From: Desulfovibrionaceae bacterium
GTDB taxonomy: Bacteria; Desulfobacterota; Desulfovibrionia; Desulfovibrionales; Desulfovibrionaceae
NCBI GenBank assembly: GCA_028689675.1
Contig: JAQVCS010000006.1
Location: forward strand, 1 to 64,000
Direction of reading: 5' to 3'
Length of the DNA: 64,000 nt
Under the pieces are notes generated by a model. It saw nothing but the letters and a program-made list of their open reading frames with translations. It was not told where the DNA came from and did not search any database. The translations under genes were made by a program, and so were the position numbers. The stretch's first letter is position 1, and each line of letters opens with the position of its first letter. Below, one piece after another: positions 20,523 through 56,774 of this stretch.

Positions 20523-20905
20523 TGGTGGAGGCGGGGGGAGTCGAACCCCCGTCCGCGAACGTTCCACACAAAGCCTCTACAGGTTTAGGACAAGTTTCTT
20601 TTCTTACTTGAGGGGTCGCCCCTGCCCACGCATCCTCAAGCCAGTTAGCCATAGTTTCTTACGGTAGCTGCTGGTTAACACCCAGCCCCGCCAGCCTGAT
20701 CATGTGTCGCCTCACCAGAATATCAGACATCATCTGGCTTGACGTGGTCATCGAGTGACCAATTTTACACCTTACTGCTAGGCAGCGTAGGCGTAAGCGT
20801 AATCGTCGTTGTTGGCAATTACAATTGTGCCGCTTTTTACGAGGCCAGCGGCGCCTCGACCTGCCACTTTGGCTTCTTCATCCCCGTCGAAACCAATGCG
20901 CCCCC
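20523..20905 (-). ncRNA. ssrA: tmRNA (ssrA)
   Basis: Transfer-messenger RNA that rescues stalled ribosomes and tags nascent chains for proteolysis. The 5' end GGGGGCGCATTGGTTTCGAC (from 20905) pairs with the 3' acceptor CGCCTCCACCA ending at 20523. The T-arm carries GTTCGACT. The tag reading frame lies at 20816-20778 and encodes ANNDDYAYAYAA followed by TAG. The length of 383 nt is normal for a one-piece tmRNA. CCA is encoded. The 3' end faces the prophage region, where integrative elements typically recombine. Confidence 0.97.
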
Positions 20906-25047: not shown

Positions 25048-25167
25048 CTAGCAGCACGTTAACTTTGAAAATGTTCGCAAGGTTTCGTAAAAACTCCTTG
25101 CCGCGCAAAGCTTACAAGGGGAATGTACTTCCCCGTTAGGGGAGCTTTGAAGGGGCATCTGCTCTAG
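25048..25167 (-). repeat. Dispersed hairpin element, copy A
   Basis: On the minus strand it runs from CTAGAGCA (25167-25160) to a CTAG end (25051-25048). It contains CAAAGC...GCTTTG enclosing GGGGAAGTACATTCCCC, then CAAGG...CCTTG. It aligns over its whole length with copies at 44742-44860 and 56662-56774. It sits between a terminator and the CoA-binding protein gene. Confidence 0.75.
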
Positions 25168-30825: not shown

Positions 30826-31038
30826 TTATTTTTTTGCACGAATCAGGGTGATGCCCTGCTCTTTATCCTCTGTTTCCACGGCAAAGCCATTATTGGCAGC
30901 GGCACGGCTGACATTTTCGCGGCTGGCGTCATTATCGACCAGAATTTCAAAATCTGTACCGCCAGCCTTGGCAGCAGTTAAAAACATCAGCACAGGCTGC
31001 GGGCACGATAAACCGCAGGTATCTATAACTTGGCTCAT
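30826..31038 (-). CDS. YedF-like SirA/TusA-family sulfur or selenium carrier
   Basis: 70 residues. It begins MSQVIDTCGLSCPQPVLMFL, and the CGLSCPQP motif holds the sulfur- or selenium-binding cysteine of the TusA/SirA family. The rest is the expected compact alpha-beta fold (FEILVDNDASRENVSRAAAN). The ATG overlaps the TAA of the YedE gene (TAATG), which shows tight coupling. Its pairing with YedE and DUF3343 supports the YedF rather than TusA assignment. Confidence 0.87.
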   Translation of the reverse strand: MSQVIDTCGLSCPQPVLMFLTAAKAGGTDFEILVDNDASRENVSRAAANNGFAVETEDKEQGITLIRAKK

Positions 31039-32132
31039 TACGCACCCCGCTTGCAATTACAAAAGCCGATAATTAAGCAAATAACCAAGCCGCCCAAGGC
31101 AGCCACATCGCCATGTGCCCCTATGCCCGCGCCAGAGCTGGCCATACCAAAATTATGCGCCAGCGCCGCACCCACAATAAGGCCAAGCACAAAAACCGCT
31201 GCGTCATTATCGCCTTCACCAGCCATAAAAAGCTGACGCCCCGGGCAGCCGCCCGCAAGGGCAAAAGCAAGGCCAGCCGTGACCATACCCATAAAGTTCC
31301 ACAGGCTTTGTGTATGCGCTATAGGCTGAGCCTCAAAGCCAGCATGAAAATTGCCCAAAAAGAAATTCAGCGCAAAGGCAGAGGCAAGCATGGCCGCAAA
31401 GCCCAAGGCCAAATGCCATTGCCTAAACAACAAGACATCGCGCACAGCGCCCATAGTGCAAAAACGGCTGCGCTGCGCCAAAAAGCCCACCAGCAGGCCG
31501 CCACCCAATGAAAGCAAAAAAGGAGCATGTGCAGCCCCGGGGCCTTTCAGCGAATAAAAAAGCACGCCGCTTTGCTCTTGCCCAGCCACAGGGGGGTACA
31601 GCAAATATAAGGCCACCAGCCCCAGCATAATGAGGGGCATAACCCAGCCCGAGGCCTTTGCCTGTGCTGTGCTACGCCCTAAAGAAAAGCCCCGACGGAA
31701 AAAGAGCGTGCCCACGCCAATGCCCACCACAAGGCCAGCAAAGCCAAAAAGGGCATTGCCGTCGCCACCAGCAAGGCGTAAAATAACGCGCCACGGGCAG
31801 CCCAAAAAGACCAATGCCCCCATAGCGGCCACCACACCCAGCACAAAGCGGGTAATGGGCGAAGAGCCGCCGCGCGCCTTAAATTCCCCAAAGCACAGGG
31901 CAGCAGCCAAAGCCCCCAGCACCATGCCCATAATTTCGGGGCGCAAATATTGCACCACGGCAGCGCGGTGCAGGCCAAGCCCCCCCGCAATATCGCGGTT
32001 AAAGCACACCACGCACACGCCCATGTTCCCCGGGTTGCCCGAAAGCTGCAAAAATACCGCTATGCAGCCCAGCAGCAAGCCCACCACAATAATTCCTGTG
32101 GTCGATGCAAAAAAATTCCCTATGGATTTCAT
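31038..32132 (-). CDS. yedE: YedE-type selenium/sulfur membrane transporter
   Basis: 364 residues from ATG 32132, with AGGAGG six bases upstream; longer readings have no RBS. About ten membrane helices belong to the YeeE/YedE family. Family cysteines lie in MGVCVVCFNRD, VFLGCPWRVIL, QRSRFCTMGAVRDVLL and ALAGGCPGRQLF. The C-terminus is FCNCKRGA. Family members take up thiosulfate or, in anaerobes with YedF, are linked to selenium metabolism. First gene of the minus-strand cluster. Confidence 0.88.
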   Translation of the reverse strand: MKSIGNFFASTTGIIVVGLLLGCIAVFLQLSGNPGNMGVCVVCFNRDIAGGLGLHRAAVVQYLRPEIMGMVLGALAAALCFGEFKARGGSSPITRFVLGVVAAMGALVFLGCPWRVILRLAGGDGNALFGFAGLVVGIGVGTLFFRRGFSLGRSTAQAKASGWVMPLIMLGLVALYLLYPPVAGQEQSGVLFYSLKGPGAAHAPFLLSLGGGLLVGFLAQRSRFCTMGAVRDVLLFRQWHLALGFAAMLASAFALNFFLGNFHAGFEAQPIAHTQSLWNFMGMVTAGLAFALAGGCPGRQLFMAGEGDNDAAVFVLGLIVGAALAHNFGMASSGAGIGAHGDVAALGGLVICLIIGFCNCKRGA

Positions 32133-32460
32133 AAATCCTCCTGTTGTGAATGAAAAATTCACCCTTACAGCAGAAGGTACGGAAAAAGCCCCAAAAGGAG
32201 CGGGGCGGCAGGTGTTTCTTATTCTTTGCGTATGCTTCCTTTCCCTGTCGCAATCCGTACCCACTTCACCCCGTGAAGTGTGCCTATGCTGCGTCAGGTG
32301 TCTTTCAAAAAAAGCATACTCTTCCCCACTGTTTTGCTCTGTACTTGACCATGCACGCTCAAACAGTAAAGAAGACGTGCACAATGCCCTTTCTCTAAAA
32401 AAGGAACACTGTTTTACAATAAAACTCGTACGAGTTCCCCCAAAACACATGATACCAAGC

Positions 32461-32515
32461 AAGCACAAGGCAAGCAAGCACAAGGCAAGCAAGCACAAGG
32501 CAGGCAAGCATCAGG
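32461..32515 (+). repeat. 15-bp tandem repeat, about 3.7 units
   Basis: Unit AAGCACAAGGCAAGC at 32461, 32476 and 32491 (one change), then a partial unit to 32515. It lies in the 790-bp gap between the yedE and TSUP genes. It is followed after 11 bp by the possible small ORF at 32527. Confidence 0.85.
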
Positions 32516-39440: not shown

Positions 39441-40322
39441 CTATTTAGGAATAGTCACTTCACCGCCAAAGTAATCAAAAGCTGTACCAAATTTTGAGGT
39501 GTCTATGCCCATAGCTTCCATAGTTTTTTTGTATTCCTGATACGCAGCAGGGGTTGCTTCTCCACTGTTCTGCCAGCTGGCAATAATTTTCTGTGGTGTC
39601 GTACTACCAGCAGGGGTAAAATATAATTGCCTTATTGTTGTTGCACCATCGGCAGATGTTACAAATTGGATTTCGGCTTTATTACCATTAGCATCGGTAA
39701 AATTTAAGCGTAATGTCGCTGATTTCCCTATATCTCCTTGCAAATCACCACCAGACGTACCCAAGCTAACTGTTACACCATTAGGAAGTGTAACCTCGGG
39801 ATATTTTTCCAAAAATTTTGCTATTCCCTCTGTGCCTCTATACTGGTTGTGCCCGTTTTGCATAAGATCTGCTATCAGCCCCGCCACAGTTGTGCTTAGG
39901 TAGGTATTCAAAGCAGTATCACATGCGGGCACATAGAGCTTTGCCCCTGTATCGATAAAAGCTGTATCGGCTACGCGCTTGGCTTTTACGGCAGTGCCTT
40001 GGGCGCTGATAGTATCGCCACTTTCAAGGCTGAGCATATGCTCACCAAAAACGCCGTCAGCCTTATCTTGAATTTGTGCCAGCGTGCTTACCTCTTCCAC
40101 CGCTTTTTTGCAGCTCTTGCCTTCCATAAGCAATTGCCCAAAGCGCATATTGATGCGCCCCTGCGCCTCGGCTACGGTGCTGAGGAAGGCTTTTTTTTGA
40201 GCATTTTCTTGTAAATCAAAATATTTGGGCACAGCCGTAGCCGCCAGTATGCCCAAGAGCACCAGTACAATGATTATTTCAATCAGGGTAAAGCCGCGCG
40301 AAGAAAATATATGGTTTTTCAT
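39441..40322 (-). CDS. Type IV pilin-like protein, long form
   Basis: 293 residues from ATG 40322. The prepilin leader ends in SSRG, with cleavage before FTLIEIIIVLVLLGILAATA. The helix continues into VPKYFDLQENAQKKAFLSTV, which matches the other two pilins. The globular domain is longer than usual and has three Cys (SCKKA, ACDTA). Last gene of the minus-strand pilus operon; it converges on the ATPase gene 14 bp away. It could be a minor or an adhesive pilin. Confidence 0.85.
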   Translation of the reverse strand: MKNHIFSSRGFTLIEIIIVLVLLGILAATAVPKYFDLQENAQKKAFLSTVAEAQGRINMRFGQLLMEGKSCKKAVEEVSTLAQIQDKADGVFGEHMLSLESGDTISAQGTAVKAKRVADTAFIDTGAKLYVPACDTALNTYLSTTVAGLIADLMQNGHNQYRGTEGIAKFLEKYPEVTLPNGVTVSLGTSGGDLQGDIGKSATLRLNFTDANGNKAEIQFVTSADGATTIRQLYFTPAGSTTPQKIIASWQNSGEATPAAYQEYKKTMEAMGIDTSKFGTAFDYFGGEVTIPK

Positions 40323-40455
40323 CGTTTTTTCACCATAAAACAAAATAAAATAGACGTCAATAAATGATACTTGTCAGGTAAAAACAGCTTTTATTCTTTT
40401 GCTAAGAAAAGAATCATGATACTTATAATACAAAGGTAATATACCGTTTTTATAA

Positions 40456-41037
40456 CTAATTTGGGCTCATATAGGCAGGGCATTCTGGCGTATACAGAAT
40501 AAATTCATCGGCATATTGTTGTGCGCCAATGGTGTCTCCACTGGAGGCATTTGTTGTAAAGTCAATGACCTTACCTGTAGGTGATGTAAGTTTTTGAATT
40601 TTATATGATCTTTTATTTCCCTCACAAAAGTGAATAAACTCTCCCGACTGCATATTCACCTTCCAGCCACCAATTGTCCCCGTGCCTGTAGCGCTACAGC
40701 TTGATGTGCCCTCATCTGCCAAGCCGTATTGATAATTCGCAACGCTACCACCATGTGCTTGTAAGCATGATGAGGGCAATAATGTCGTGACCGCTGTGCC
40801 CTTACGAAAATTAGGATTGTTCTCTGTCGTGTTTTGCTTTACCTTAGTGCCTGTGAGCAGCCAATCATAAAAGGTCATATTCAGGCGCGACTGCACTTCG
40901 GCAAGTGTCCCTTTTGCCGCTTGAATTTCGGCTGTCTCTATTAAATTAAGATATTTAGGAACAGCAATCATAGCCAAGACAGCCAAAAGCACCAGAACAA
41001 TAATAATCTCTACCAATGTAAAACCCTGCTTTTGCAT
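40456..41037 (-). CDS. Type IV pilin-like protein
   Basis: 193 residues from ATG 41037, with a G-run upstream. The leader is only MQKQG, then FTLVEIIIVLVLLAVLAMIA. The helix continues as VPKYLNLIETAEIQAAKGTL, paralogous to its neighbours. The globular part has four Cys (SSCLQ, SSCSA, HFCEG, PECPA) that could form two disulfides. It is separated from the next pilin by a terminator, so it may have lower or independent expression. Confidence 0.85.
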   Translation of the reverse strand: MQKQGFTLVEIIIVLVLLAVLAMIAVPKYLNLIETAEIQAAKGTLAEVQSRLNMTFYDWLLTGTKVKQNTTENNPNFRKGTAVTTLLPSSCLQAHGGSVANYQYGLADEGTSSCSATGTGTIGGWKVNMQSGEFIHFCEGNKRSYKIQKLTSPTGKVIDFTTNASSGDTIGAQQYADEFILYTPECPAYMSPN

Positions 41038-41079
41038 AGCTCTGATACCCCCCTTGGTCAACTTTTGCCGTCAGCATAC

Positions 41080-41117
41080 AAAAAAAGCACCCTATGGTAA
41101 AGCCCACAGGGTGCTTA
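41080..41117 (-). terminator. Terminator after the first pilin gene
   Basis: Minus strand AAGCACCCT / AGGGTGCTT stem followed by TTTTTTTG. Placed 20 bp after the stop of the 156-residue pilin, it would let that pilin be made in excess over the two downstream pilins. Confidence 0.85.
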
Positions 41118-41136
41118 CGAGAGCTTTGATTGGGAA

Positions 41137-41607
41137 CTACTCAGATTGTGTAGTAGCAGGAGTACCCACGGTACAACCAGGAGCACGCAATACTGGCCAT
41201 GATGAAGTTGTATTCGACCCTGAAGTTGTAGAAGGCTTTGTAATTTCTTGACCATCAATAAAAACCGAATTGACAACCGTCGTATCGTCCGTAGTATTCG
41301 CTCCCTTAAACGCATTAATCGTCATGACATAGTTGCCAATAGTTAAATTTTCCTCCTTTTTAACAATGTTTTTGGCCGTTGTTACAGCTTTGTCACAAGT
41401 TTTTCCAGCCAGCAATTCGTCAGCAAAGGTCAAGTTAATGCGTGCCTGTACTTCAGCAATTGCCGAAATAGCAGCTTTCTGGTTAGCCGTTTCCACCAAG
41501 TCATAATACTTAGGCACAGCCGTAGCCGCCAAAATACCCAGCAACACCAAGACGATGATAATTTCAATCAACGTAAAGCCTTGTTCTAAAGCATGATCTT
41601 TTTTCAT
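41137..41607 (-). CDS. Type IV pilin, probable major pilin
   Basis: 156 residues, AGGGG before ATG 41607. The leader is KKDHALEQG, then FTLIEIIIVLVLLGILAATA and VPKYYDLVETANQKAAISAI. The size, the Cys pair (KTCDKA and PGCTVG) and the terminator immediately after it fit a major pilin. The mature N-terminal 25 residues are almost identical to those of the other two pilins. Confidence 0.87.
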   Translation of the reverse strand: MKKDHALEQGFTLIEIIIVLVLLGILAATAVPKYYDLVETANQKAAISAIAEVQARINLTFADELLAGKTCDKAVTTAKNIVKKEENLTIGNYVMTINAFKGANTTDDTTVVNSVFIDGQEITKPSTTSGSNTTSSWPVLRAPGCTVGTPATTQSE

Positions 41608-44741: not shown

Positions 44742-44860
44742 CTAAAGCAGATTCCCTTTCAAAGCGCATGTAATGGGGAGGTACATTCCCCTTGTTCGCT
44801 TTGAGCGGCAAGGATTTCTTACGAAACCTTGCGAGCATTGTTACAAGTACAATGCTCTAG
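44742..44860 (+). repeat. Dispersed hairpin element, copy B
   Basis: It runs from CTAAAGCA (44742-44749) to TGCTCTAG (44853-44860), which are near-inverted ends. Inside are CAAAGCG...CGCTTTG enclosing GGGGAGGTACATTCCCC, CAAGG...CCTTG, and AGCATTG...CAATGCT. The last 4 bp overlap the stop codon of the secretin gene. It separates the secretin gene from pilB in the operon. Confidence 0.8.
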
Positions 44861-46488
44861 CGCGTCTGCACGGCGGCGGGCATAGAGGCCGCGGCGGGCT
44901 TGGCTTTTGCCTTGTCTTCATCCAGCACAGGGGGGGAATCGGGCAAGGTGCGGGGCTGCATATCCAGCGCGGTGCGCGTGGGCAAAATAACAGGAGTGAT
45001 AAAAATCATCACTTCTTCCATATTTTTTGTGCGATTGGTTGAGCCAAACACATATTTGCCCCCGGGCAGGTTTTTTAAGCCCGGCACGCCTGCTTCGGTA
45101 TTCACGCCCTTTTCTTTTGTTAAGCCAGAAATAACCACGGTTTCGCCAGTGCGCATGATAAGTGTTGTTTCTGTTTGCTTTTTAATAATGTAGGGGTTGC
45201 CGTCCACAGCGCGCGAGCTGTCCACTTCATCCTTTTTTACCAGCACTTTGAGCTTGAGGTTTGCGCCATCAATAACATTGGGCGTCATTTCAAGGCGCAG
45301 CACGGCTTCTTCAAACTTTACTTCATTATCGCCATCAGTATTTTTGGTAACATAGGGCACTTTTTCGCCATTTTCGGTATAGGCCATTTTGTTATCAAGG
45401 GTGGTGATAGAGGGCGAAGAAAGAATGTTGAGCTGACCGTCTTTTTCCATCAAGTTCAGCTGCATTTCCAAGACATTGCCGCCAATAGCGCCAAACATAA
45501 AGGACAAAGCGCCAGCCCCCGTGCCCGCCACCTGCGCGGAATAATCAAGCCCAATGGGTTGGCCGCTCATGCCGCCCGCCGTGCCATAGCCGCCAGTAAC
45601 AGGGTCTACACCAAAAGTGCCTGTGCCTGCCGAGCCAGCCCAAAAGCGCTGCCCATTGCTATTCATGCCGCTGCGAATAACCCCGCCCCACTTTGTGCCC
45701 AGCTCGCGCGCGGTTTCTTTAGTAGCTTCCACAATGTAGGCTTTAAGCTGCACCTGCGGGCGCGGGCGGTCGAGGTGCTCCACAAGCTGTACAATACGGC
45801 GCTGTGCCGCAGCAGAGGCCTGCACCACAAGGGCATTGCTGTGCTCATCCACTTCTATAATGGCTTCTTGATTTTTCCCCAGCAGGCTGCTTAGGCTGGT
45901 TTTGAGTGCCTGAGCCTCGGCATAGCGCACGCTGATGACAGAAACAGAAATGGGCCCATTTTGCTGTGCCAGCACATGCTGCTGCGCCAATTGGTTATTC
46001 AGCGCCAGCATGCTGATTTCTTTTTGCTTTTCCACAGCGGTGAGCACTTGCAAGATATTGCCCTGCCAGCGATATTCCAGCCCATTGGCACGCAGCAGGC
46101 TTAAAAAAACATCGCGCCACGGCGTTTTTTGCACATTCAGGCTGGCCGAGCCGCTCACCCCCGGGCTGACCATAATGTTGATGCCCGCAGCAGCCGCCAG
46201 CGAACGCACAGCCACACTCACATCCACCGAATGCAATTTCAGGGTAACAGGCATGGTGGGCAAGGGCTTGTTGCTGCCTCTGTCCCAAGCATCTGTTTGC
46301 TGCATAATCACGCGGGGCTGGGGCTGCAAATCGGCAGGCGCTGGGGAATAGCCCTGCCTTTGCTCGGCCTCTTTTTTCCAGTGATCGGTAAAAGGGTCTG
46401 GCTCTGATTTTTTGGAACAAGCAAACACAAAAGCAAAACAACAACACAGCAAGGCACAAAGTATAACGCGCTGTTTAGAGTAAGGCAT
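44857..46488 (-). CDS. Type IV pilus secretin, lipoprotein (MshL/PilQ-like)
   Basis: 543 residues. The signal peptide ends in FAFVFAC, so Cys24 is probably lipidated. An N-domain with STN-like features (VSVAVRSLAAAAGINIMVSP) and a KH-like N1 domain follow. The secretin domain contains ILSSPSITTLDNKMAYTENG, EVKFEEAVLRLEMTPNVIDG and the end motif EAGVPGLKNLPGGKYVFGST. It forms the outer-membrane channel. Its TAG stop lies inside the end of repeat copy B, so the last codons may have been altered by that element. Confidence 0.93.
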   Translation of the reverse strand: MPYSKQRVILCALLCCCFAFVFACSKKSEPDPFTDHWKKEAEQRQGYSPAPADLQPQPRVIMQQTDAWDRGSNKPLPTMPVTLKLHSVDVSVAVRSLAAAAGINIMVSPGVSGSASLNVQKTPWRDVFLSLLRANGLEYRWQGNILQVLTAVEKQKEISMLALNNQLAQQHVLAQQNGPISVSVISVRYAEAQALKTSLSSLLGKNQEAIIEVDEHSNALVVQASAAAQRRIVQLVEHLDRPRPQVQLKAYIVEATKETARELGTKWGGVIRSGMNSNGQRFWAGSAGTGTFGVDPVTGGYGTAGGMSGQPIGLDYSAQVAGTGAGALSFMFGAIGGNVLEMQLNLMEKDGQLNILSSPSITTLDNKMAYTENGEKVPYVTKNTDGDNEVKFEEAVLRLEMTPNVIDGANLKLKVLVKKDEVDSSRAVDGNPYIIKKQTETTLIMRTGETVVISGLTKEKGVNTEAGVPGLKNLPGGKYVFGSTNRTKNMEEVMIFITPVILPTRTALDMQPRTLPDSPPVLDEDKAKAKPAAASMPAAVQTR

Positions 46489-54874: not shown

Positions 54875-56659
54875 ATGTTTATTCCTTTAAATTTTTTTGA
54901 GAACTCCATGCTTGGCACATTCAAATCCTTTTGTGTAGACTGTCTTCAATCACTTCGAATTTGTCTAAGCAGCATCAGTGCTCGCGGCGCTTTATTATTG
55001 CAAAGTTTTGCCATACTATGCATGATTGCGCTTTTGTTTTCTTATGATGTTCTGCAAAATTGGGACTATGCCAACACGCAGCGCCTGCGGCAGGCACGAA
55101 CCCTCGTCTTAACCCTAGCCTCGCGCCAGCAGGTGCTTATCAACTCTGCCTCTACTTTTTTATATGCCTTATCCTTTTCTTCACTCTTGCAAGACAACAG
55201 CAAGCCGCTCACCCCTGAAAATATTCAATATCTTGTGGAAAAATTTGAAAAACTGCCCTCAGATTTTTTGGGGCTCTTCATTTTTTCCCCCGATGGGCGT
55301 GCCTTGTGTTCTTTTATTAATGGCGAAAGCTACCCCTTACCTGCCGATGTCGCTTTTAGCCGTCCCTATTTTATTAAAACTCTGCACAATAAAGAATTTA
55401 CGGTGAACAGCCTATTTGTCCTTGACAATGGGCAAAAAATATTGCCGCTCACCCTTCCTGTGTATACTGCCACAGGTGAACTGCATGCCGTGCTGATGCT
55501 GCCGCTGAATATGGAAAAACAGGAAGATTATTTGCGCACGGCGGTTGATTCTCTTGCTTTTCAGCCTCATGTTGTCGGCCTGCTAGACAGGAAAAAATCC
55601 CCTCTGGCTCAATACCATGAGCATAAAAATTTTCATTATAATGAACATATTGAAAGACTTCTTGCCGGAGCACTGTATCAGGATGAAAACCTGCTGAACC
55701 CGTTAACAGAAAAACGTATGGCAATATGGTCTGACAGCACGGGGGATTATATGGGTTTTTCCGCTTCACTGCGCCTACAGCCAAATGAAAAACCCTATGC
55801 CTATATGCTGGCCATAGCAGAAAAAATTCCCCTGCTTACTTTTGTGTGGAATAATTATTTATTACAATTTTCAGGCTTCGCCTGTATTGTCTTGATTATG
55901 CTCTTACTTTCCCGCTATATTGGTCTTTATTACTTTAGTGCGGGCTTAGAAAAATTGACAGATATAACCAGCCAATGCCAGCAGGGCAACTTGCAGGCCA
56001 TTGCCCCTGTGCATGGCTGCAAAGAGCTTACCCTGCTGGGGCAGCATTATGAAACCATGTTGCGCTCTTTGCAGCAATCCACAGAGCAGCTTACCCGCCT
56101 TTCGTATGAAGATGCGCTTACGCATATCTGGAACAGACGCCATTTTATGCTGAAGGCAGAGCAGGAATTGCAGCGCAGCCAGCGCACACACAGCCCCCTG
56201 TGCTTTGCCATGTTGGATATCGATCATTTTAAACTGGTGAACGACACCTATGGCCATGCTGCTGGTGATGCTGTTCTTGCAAATTTTGCCACAATAACAC
56301 GTCAAAACCTGCGAACAAGTGATATTTTTGCCCGCTATGGTGGCGAAGAATTTGTAATTTGCTTTATTAACAGCACAGAACAAGAAAGCCTTGCTGTTTT
56401 AGAACGCATTCAGCAAGCATGGCAAAAATACTGTACACAGTATGAAGACAAGGCTATTTACTGCACCATAAGCGGCGGCTGTTTTGCAGTAACACAAAAA
56501 GACTTTATAAGCATGGGTACAGAGTGGGAGTATACACTGAAAACAATACTTTCGCGTGCTGACAGTGCTTTATATTATGCTAAAGAACAAGGCAGAAATA
56601 CTATGTATGCATGGCACCCAGACATGATGCACACACAAACAGCCGCAGCGCAACAATAA
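54875..56659 (+). CDS. Membrane diguanylate cyclase with periplasmic sensor
   Basis: 594 residues from ATG 54875 (GGTGAG upstream; ATG 54908 possible). A membrane helix at about 45-62, a periplasmic dCACHE-like sensor to about 320, a second helix (FACIVLIMLLLSRYIGLYYF), and a HAMP-like linker. The GGDEF domain is intact: DALTHIWNRRHFM, MLDIDHFKLVNDTYGH, GGEEF at 489-493. The inhibitory site RTSD begins at residue 480, exactly five residues before GGEEF. It makes cyclic-di-GMP under feedback control, opposing the neighbouring EAL protein. Confidence 0.92.
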   Translation: MFIPLNFFENSMLGTFKSFCVDCLQSLRICLSSISARGALLLQSFAILCMIALLFSYDVLQNWDYANTQRLRQARTLVLTLASRQQVLINSASTFLYALSFSSLLQDNSKPLTPENIQYLVEKFEKLPSDFLGLFIFSPDGRALCSFINGESYPLPADVAFSRPYFIKTLHNKEFTVNSLFVLDNGQKILPLTLPVYTATGELHAVLMLPLNMEKQEDYLRTAVDSLAFQPHVVGLLDRKKSPLAQYHEHKNFHYNEHIERLLAGALYQDENLLNPLTEKRMAIWSDSTGDYMGFSASLRLQPNEKPYAYMLAIAEKIPLLTFVWNNYLLQFSGFACIVLIMLLLSRYIGLYYFSAGLEKLTDITSQCQQGNLQAIAPVHGCKELTLLGQHYETMLRSLQQSTEQLTRLSYEDALTHIWNRRHFMLKAEQELQRSQRTHSPLCFAMLDIDHFKLVNDTYGHAAGDAVLANFATITRQNLRTSDIFARYGGEEFVICFINSTEQESLAVLERIQQAWQKYCTQYEDKAIYCTISGGCFAVTQKDFISMGTEWEYTLKTILSRADSALYYAKEQGRNTMYAWHPDMMHTQTAAAQQ

Positions 56660-56661
56660 AT

Positions 56662-56774
56662 CATACTCACTTTCAAAGCGCATGTCATAGGGAAGTACAT
56701 TCCCCTTATCCGCTTTGATTGGTGAAAATTGCTTATGAAACCTTGTAAGTATTTTCAAAGCTACAATGCTCAAG
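56662..56774 (+). repeat. Dispersed hairpin element, copy C
   Basis: It aligns with copy B over about 113 bp: TTTCAAAGCGCATGT then GGGAAGTACATTCCC inside CAAAGCG...CGCTTTG, then GAAACCTTG, and an end TGCTCAAG (56767-56774). It begins just after the stop of the cyclase gene. It is more diverged than A and B, and the CAAGG...CCTTG hairpin is weakened. Confidence 0.75.

Follow-up and report, generated by a model that had tools for sequence, protein, structure and literature searches.

Three copies of a hairpin-forming element in the window

The window, which is the whole 64,000-nt stretch of DNA analysed here and corresponds to C12, one of the 26 contigs that make up a 2.36-Mb genome, contains three copies of a short folded element, interpreted below as a MITE. 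Copy A lies between an iPGM gene and a CoA-binding-domain gene; copy B sits between type II secretion genes, with the secretin gene upstream and the T2SSE ATPase gene downstream, both on the minus strand; and copy C separates a GGDEF gene from a convergent ilvC. The features are:

25048-25167, minus strand: copy A, including one flank base beyond each target TA (covariance model 109.8 bits, E 7e-26)
44742-44860, plus strand: copy B, CTA, then AAGCAG...ATGCTC, then TAG (covariance model 131.6 bits)
44759-44803, plus strand: hairpin I of copy B, a two-tier stem TTCAAAGCG...CGCTTTGA with inner GGGGAG-GTACA-TTCCCC
44805-44834, plus strand: hairpin II of copy B, GGCAAGGATTTCTTACGAAACCTTGC
44833-44857, plus strand: hairpin III of copy B, an alternative terminal hairpin GAGCATTGT...ACAATGCTC that competes with end-to-end pairing
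44857-44859, minus strand: TAG stop codon of the secretin gene, formed by the target TA and the last base of copy B
56656-56774, plus strand: copy C (covariance model 94.6 bits)
56657-56659, plus strand: TAA stop codon of the GGDEF gene, formed by the target TA and the first base of copy C

The original prediction that three copies align end to end is borne out, with blastn alignments to copy B that span 98-119 nt at 78-85% identity (E 2e-21 to 2e-25). The boundaries proposed for copy B are exact; those of copy A stand, with the refinements that one flank base is included on each side and that a 1-nt insertion lies near its right end; and copy C begins at 56656, not at the proposed 56662, while its end at 56774 holds. 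The target TAs are at 25165-25166 and 25049-25050 (copy A), at 44743-44744 and 44858-44859 (copy B), and at 56657-56658 on the left of copy C, whose right TA has decayed to AA (56772-56773). It was also rightly stated that no copy lies inside a gene, to which it must be added that copies B and C each share 3 nt with the stop codon of an adjacent gene (for B the secretin gene, 44857-46488, minus strand; for C the GGDEF gene, 54875-56659, plus strand). The stems found comprise CAAAGC/GCTTTG with its inner GGGGAA-GTACA-TTCCCC hairpin, CAAGG/CCTTG and a terminal GAGCA/TGCTC pairing. The near-inverted CTAGAGCA ends were read correctly and consist of the TA target plus the terminal inverted repeat, which is the key to the element's identity.

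Other features of the window were recorded alongside. A tmRNA gene with the tag ANNDDYAYAYAA is located at 20523-20905, where Rfam and ARAGORN concur. A 15-bp tandem repeat, CAAGCAAGCACAAGG, occurs in about four copies (32456-32515) at the start of a 489-aa minus-strand ORF (31038-32507) that weakly matches the sulphur transporter family PF04143. In the type II secretion cluster around copy B, three consecutive minus-strand genes (39441-41607) share a 107-nt segment at their starts, which encodes prepilin-type N-terminal methylation motifs (PF07963).

A dispersed family with duplicated TA targets

A covariance model built from 41 copies (R1) identifies 67 full-length, dispersed copies in the 2.36-Mb genome at E<1e-6, a threshold below which scores drop sharply to reverse-strand and chance matches; copy B as a blastn query scores at 40 places. 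The element is about 118 bp long, TA-|GAGCAGATTCACTTTCAAAG…ATGCTC|-TA, with the family consensus TA-GAGCAGATTCACTTTCAAAGCTCATGTAACGGGGAAGTACATTCCCCTTGTGAGCTTTGAGCGGCAAGGATTTCTTACGAAACCTTGCGAGCATTTTCAAAGgTACAATGCTC-TA. Pairwise identity among copies averages 79% (range 65-92%), and their flanks are unrelated from the first base beyond the TA. Of 42 aligned copies, 29 have the TA on either side, as do 39 of all 67, and the context is YTAR in 32 of these 39; across the 42 aligned copies, a pyrimidine precedes and a purine follows the terminal TA. Thus, the element has the characteristics of a MITE: it is shorter than 500 bp, lacks a transposase gene, occurs in many dispersed copies, and has a target-site duplication together with GAGCA...TGCTC in imperfect terminal inverted repeats of about 20 bp.

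IS630 elements with the same ends

The Pfam DDE_3 profile (IS630 family) has two matches in the window's genome, and they mark two nearly identical TA-flanked elements of about 985 bp each (L040 1041-2029 and L041 1398-2387, contig C8) with ends TAGAGCATTTCAACTTTYAAATT and with TAGAGCATTTCAACTTTYAAA next to the TA on both sides. Neither has an uninterrupted orfA; both carry the same interruption, a 78-aa ORF and, after it, a second open frame that is about 203 aa long and contains DDE_3. One of them abuts a MITE copy, L012, with a single TA common to both.

Over 20 nt, the ends of the MITE match those of the local IS630 elements at 16 (left) and 17 (right) positions, compared to 7.2 in shuffles. 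The corresponding left and right matches are 15 and 15 in genome G010, 17 and 14 in G018, and 16 and 19 in G017; in the four genomes together, 14-19 of 20 nt match, where the shuffle mean is 7-8.5 (P<=3e-4). Only the ends are common to the two kinds of element, and their interiors differ. Moreover, in G018 both the IS630 element and a younger MITE subfamily have changed to TAAAGCA..TTTGCAWTT, and the altered MITE left end TAAAGCATTTTGCATTTC matches its own altered IS end best (17 positions, versus 13-14 for other IS). The TA duplications, the YTAR targets and the IS630 ends, which are the same in this and three further genera, identify an IS630-type MITE, whose ends and TA target are those of an element with a DDE_3 transposase. 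Two of the follow-up tests proposed at the outset, for target duplications and for a transposase with matching ends, gave positive results.

Several related elements were observed in other genomes. An IS in G018 (L092) that seemed to bear the MITE end as its own was rejected as such, as the sequence is a nested insertion of an IS630 at a TA within a MITE copy (1-1097, contig C35); its orfA/orfB junction lies at an A-run that resembles a programmed frameshift site, and the A-run is also present in the IS630 copies of the window's genome. The D. cuneatus genome (G021) has a simpler MITE with the same IS630 ends, TAGAGCATTTTAACTTTGAAAA, a near-perfect 80-bp palindrome (L085 1501-1580), indicating that one set of ends carries different hairpin interiors. 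Other short hairpin elements with the same ends and unrelated interiors occur in G017 (L073, L081 and L087, whose tips read N in the assembly) and in G044 (L074).

The family is probably dormant in the window's genome, to judge by the interruption of orfA and by how old the copies are (mean identity 79%). In contrast, G018 contains at least 150 copies, and of the 71 that were examined in detail, 11 share one sequence and 10 share another; these groups of identical copies indicate recent movement there.

Insertion sites and stop codons

According to simple codon-usage gene calls made for this analysis, 33 of the 67 copies lie in tandem gaps, 27 in convergent gaps and 3 in divergent gaps, with 4 left without a class. 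One copy overlaps a gene, and only one gene extends more than 12 nt into an element. The elements keep away from genes and from divergent promoter gaps.

In 24 of the 67 copies, the neighbour's stop codon is formed by the TA and the element's first base (TAG, or TAA if this base is an A); the left end is at the stop codon in 11 and the right end in 13, with no preferred orientation towards the neighbouring gene. The stop codon is preserved because the first base of the element, next to the target TA, is G or A, and TA followed by either of these is always a stop. Such landings also account for 15 of 71 copies in G018 and 6 of 17 in G042. The share expected depends on how the target is defined. 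Taking non-coding and stop-codon YTAR sites at the same loci, the expected shares are 15% in the window's genome, 9% in G018 and 20% in G042, and the pooled count of 45 of 155 exceeds the expected 12.8% (P 7e-8); with CTAG sites as the only targets, 21% would be expected in the pool and the enrichment is weak (P 0.013). Target preference thus explains much of the stop-codon landing, and the remainder is probably due to selection against other places.

Two other readings of these positions were rejected. Gene truncation is contradicted by the single gene that reaches more than 12 nt into an element and by the full-length profile matches of adjoining proteins (MazG 250/251, RidA 123/125, LeuA 511/516, ProC 263/263, MutL 632/634 and HrpB 824/825); further, MutL of the genus-mate G002 ends at the same residue with no element there. 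A terminator is contradicted by the lack of a T tract in copy B and of any orientation bias.

Pairing is kept between genera while sequence is rewritten

The family consensus folds with a free energy of -46.5 kcal/mol (z = -6.1), and single copies fold with z-scores of -5.3 (copy B), -4.3 (copy C) and only -1.3 (copy A). Among the copies of this genome, 90.5% of cells retain the fold, and stems diverge less (0.095-0.108) than unpaired sites (0.174), with 103 one-sided stem changes that keep pairing versus 63 expected; double-sided changes amount to 21 cells versus 13.1 in shuffles, and old copies contain 133 broken cells with one-sided mismatches. RNAalifold retains only 9 pairs in the within-genome alignment, so these data alone would have missed the structure.

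Between genera, double-sided changes occur at 30 of 36 pairs (217 cells), and the covariation score is 0.532, against 0.171 for shuffles and no more than 0.105 for slid controls, though the alignment was fitted to a model of the same structure, which inflates the pairing counts. Sequences from other genera, folded alone, adopt the same structure type with z-scores from -6.6 to -9.8. For example, the hairpin I arms read CAAAGCTCAC/GTGAGCTTTG in the window's genome, CAAATAGTCG/CGCCTATTTG in G010, GAAATGCTTG/CAAGCATTTC in G042 and GAAATTATCGC/GCGATAATTTC in G102. Decisively, pairing is kept while the stem sequence is rewritten between genera. The compensated stem change noticed earlier in copy A is real, and such covariation is weak within the genome and overwhelming between genera. 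Rfam contains no relevant family at either gathering or permissive thresholds. In G010, one copy (L075 1501-1654) has an extra hairpin of about 40 nt in the tip of hairpin I.

Model R1 detects related elements in 9 of 59 relatives, all of the same family, and detects none in two genus-mates. A cross-genus model (R2) has matches at E<=1e-4 in 64 of 297 genomes of the class, spanning 16 of 53 genera; 62 of these genomes belong to the same family (Desulfovibrionaceae by named records), and the other two, from another family of the order, have single matches. In named genomes, the exact hairpin II pattern has at least 120 matches, and those listed are all from Desulfovibrio or other Desulfovibrionales/Deltaproteobacteria, with D. 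cuneatus DSM 11391 and numerous MAGs among them; the exact pattern of the window genome's own variant has no match in named genomes. The element could have been dismissed had a genome-wide covariance-model search revealed neither further copies nor covariation beyond the first three; the search yielded 67 copies, and strong covariation was found between genera.

Alternative explanations

Two of the alternatives concern why the hairpins persist. The element could chiefly be a structured RNA with a function at the 3′ ends of genes (a bidirectional terminator, an RNase III site or a 3′ stabiliser) that was spread by a transposase, with the covariation reflecting RNA function at each locus. The slower divergence of stems (about 0.10 versus 0.17), the excess of pair-keeping one-sided changes (103 versus 63), the location of copies in convergent and tandem but hardly in divergent gaps, and the action of Correia and ERIC RNAs on mRNAs (PMC10969869, PMC2229807) would all agree with such a role. 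However, left and right ends meet stop codons about equally (11 versus 13), copy B lacks a T-tract terminator, no Rfam family matches, and double-sided changes among the copies of this genome are hardly more numerous than in shuffles. Moreover, no element was detected in the two genus-mates, nor at mutL, the sole orthologous locus compared, so there is no sign of conserved use; this explanation is considered unlikely. Quasi-palindrome correction, in which a template switch during replication rewrites one arm from its partner, would instead generate covariation without selection. It is consistent with arms that stay complementary despite fast sequence turnover between genera, and with the double changes between two G018 subfamilies (GGCGGAA/TTCCGCC versus GGCGCAA/TTGCGCC), and it is a strong contender for explaining some of the covariation. 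Alone, it would not preserve the two-hairpin layout, the spacing and the end sequences over 16 genera, and it sits poorly with the many one-sided mismatches in old copies; as the full explanation it is doubtful, to about the same degree as the structured RNA.

The remaining alternatives concern how the copies arose. The MITE part of the original interpretation agrees with the TA duplications, terminal inverted repeats, dispersed copies and same-genome IS630 elements with the same ends, while its REP part, taken strictly, lacks support. An element of the REP/BIME type, mobilised by RAYT (a Y1 transposase), would likewise be short, intergenic, hairpin-forming and numerous, but the TA duplication and inverted-repeat ends equal to those of IS630 are not REP features and leave the strict REP reading unsupported, and a 118-bp element with three stems also speaks against it, making it very improbable. 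Even less credible is an ancestral intergenic sequence amplified by recombination or inherited vertically without any transposon; nothing beyond the age of the copies favours it, whereas the copies share no flanking sequence beyond the TA, insertions lie on orthologous stop codons, and a genus-mate has an empty site.

A proposed mechanism

The element is very probably a non-autonomous MITE moved in trans by an IS630 transposase (Tc1/mariner superfamily, DDE_3). In the mechanism suggested by these sequences, the transposase would recognise the common ends, imperfect terminal repeats of about 20 bp (TAGAGCAnnTTnACTTTnAAA), cut at a TA within YTAR/CTAG and rejoin there, duplicating the TA. The interior is predicted to form two to three stable hairpins, and this folding would be maintained since the mobile (master) lineage needs it; old copies tolerate broken pairs, yet the layout survives over genera, which argues for selection on the mobile lineage. 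The fold may be needed for mobility. Its role would most likely be to bring the ends together on a single or extruded strand, or to make the insert tolerable in transcripts; aid to synapsis or excision is favoured, at close to even chances, over making inserts harmless in transcripts. Survival of insertions would then be biased to sites where they do no harm. A tentative and rather unlikely extension is that the IS630-type transposase preferentially moves the folded (single-stranded or cruciform) element, with the hairpins joining the ends, so that structure rather than sequence is inherited through many genera, and that the stop-restoring ends render insertions nearly invisible to selection.

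Comparison to known elements

The ERIC, MITEPlu5 and MITEEc1 elements of Enterobacteriaceae and Photorhabdus are similar, being about 123-127 bp long and intergenic, with hundreds of copies, a TA duplication and a very stable fold (PMC6267812). MITEPlu5 ends resemble IS630-type elements (PMC6267812) and are of the CCC type of IS630 ends, whereas the Desulfovibrionaceae element has a stop-preserving G or A after the TA; it also combines a two-tier hairpin I with a hairpin II, and its sequence is called unrelated to the ERIC group on a comparison by description. RUP of Streptococcus pneumoniae, associated with IS630-Spn1, shares the small size (107 bp), the intergenic location of its 108 copies, ends common with IS630 and a TA target; it is confined to a single species, and the available part of its report describes no cross-genus conservation of structure (PMC2229807). 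The Correia/NEMIS elements of Neisseria are also short, TA-flanked, folded and located beside genes, with effects on mRNA processing (PMC2229807, PMC10969869); they differ in their ends (24 bp, PMC2229807) and host, and in having a demonstrated function. QMITE2 of Coxiella burnetii is likewise found mainly in 3′ untranslated regions (PMC10969869), but its 7-9 bp direct repeats imply a different transposase class. Overall, the element is a new family within the structured IS630/Tc1-mariner MITE class (ERIC, RUP, Correia-like), set apart from its members by their published descriptions. No description of Desulfovibrio MITEs or of such a family was found in the literature searched, which lay mostly outside subscription papers and ISfinder.

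An apparently undescribed, IS630-linked MITE family is shaping intergenic DNA across much of Desulfovibrionaceae, and several genomes contain both an IS and a MITE with matching ends. Because the fold has stayed constant while the interiors were rewritten many times, the family is well suited to asking why bacterial MITEs fold, a question that the ERIC, RUP and Correia elements also raise. The family shows a transposon using stop codons as safe landing sites, and it is worth masking when the 3′ ends and small RNAs of these sulfate reducers are annotated.
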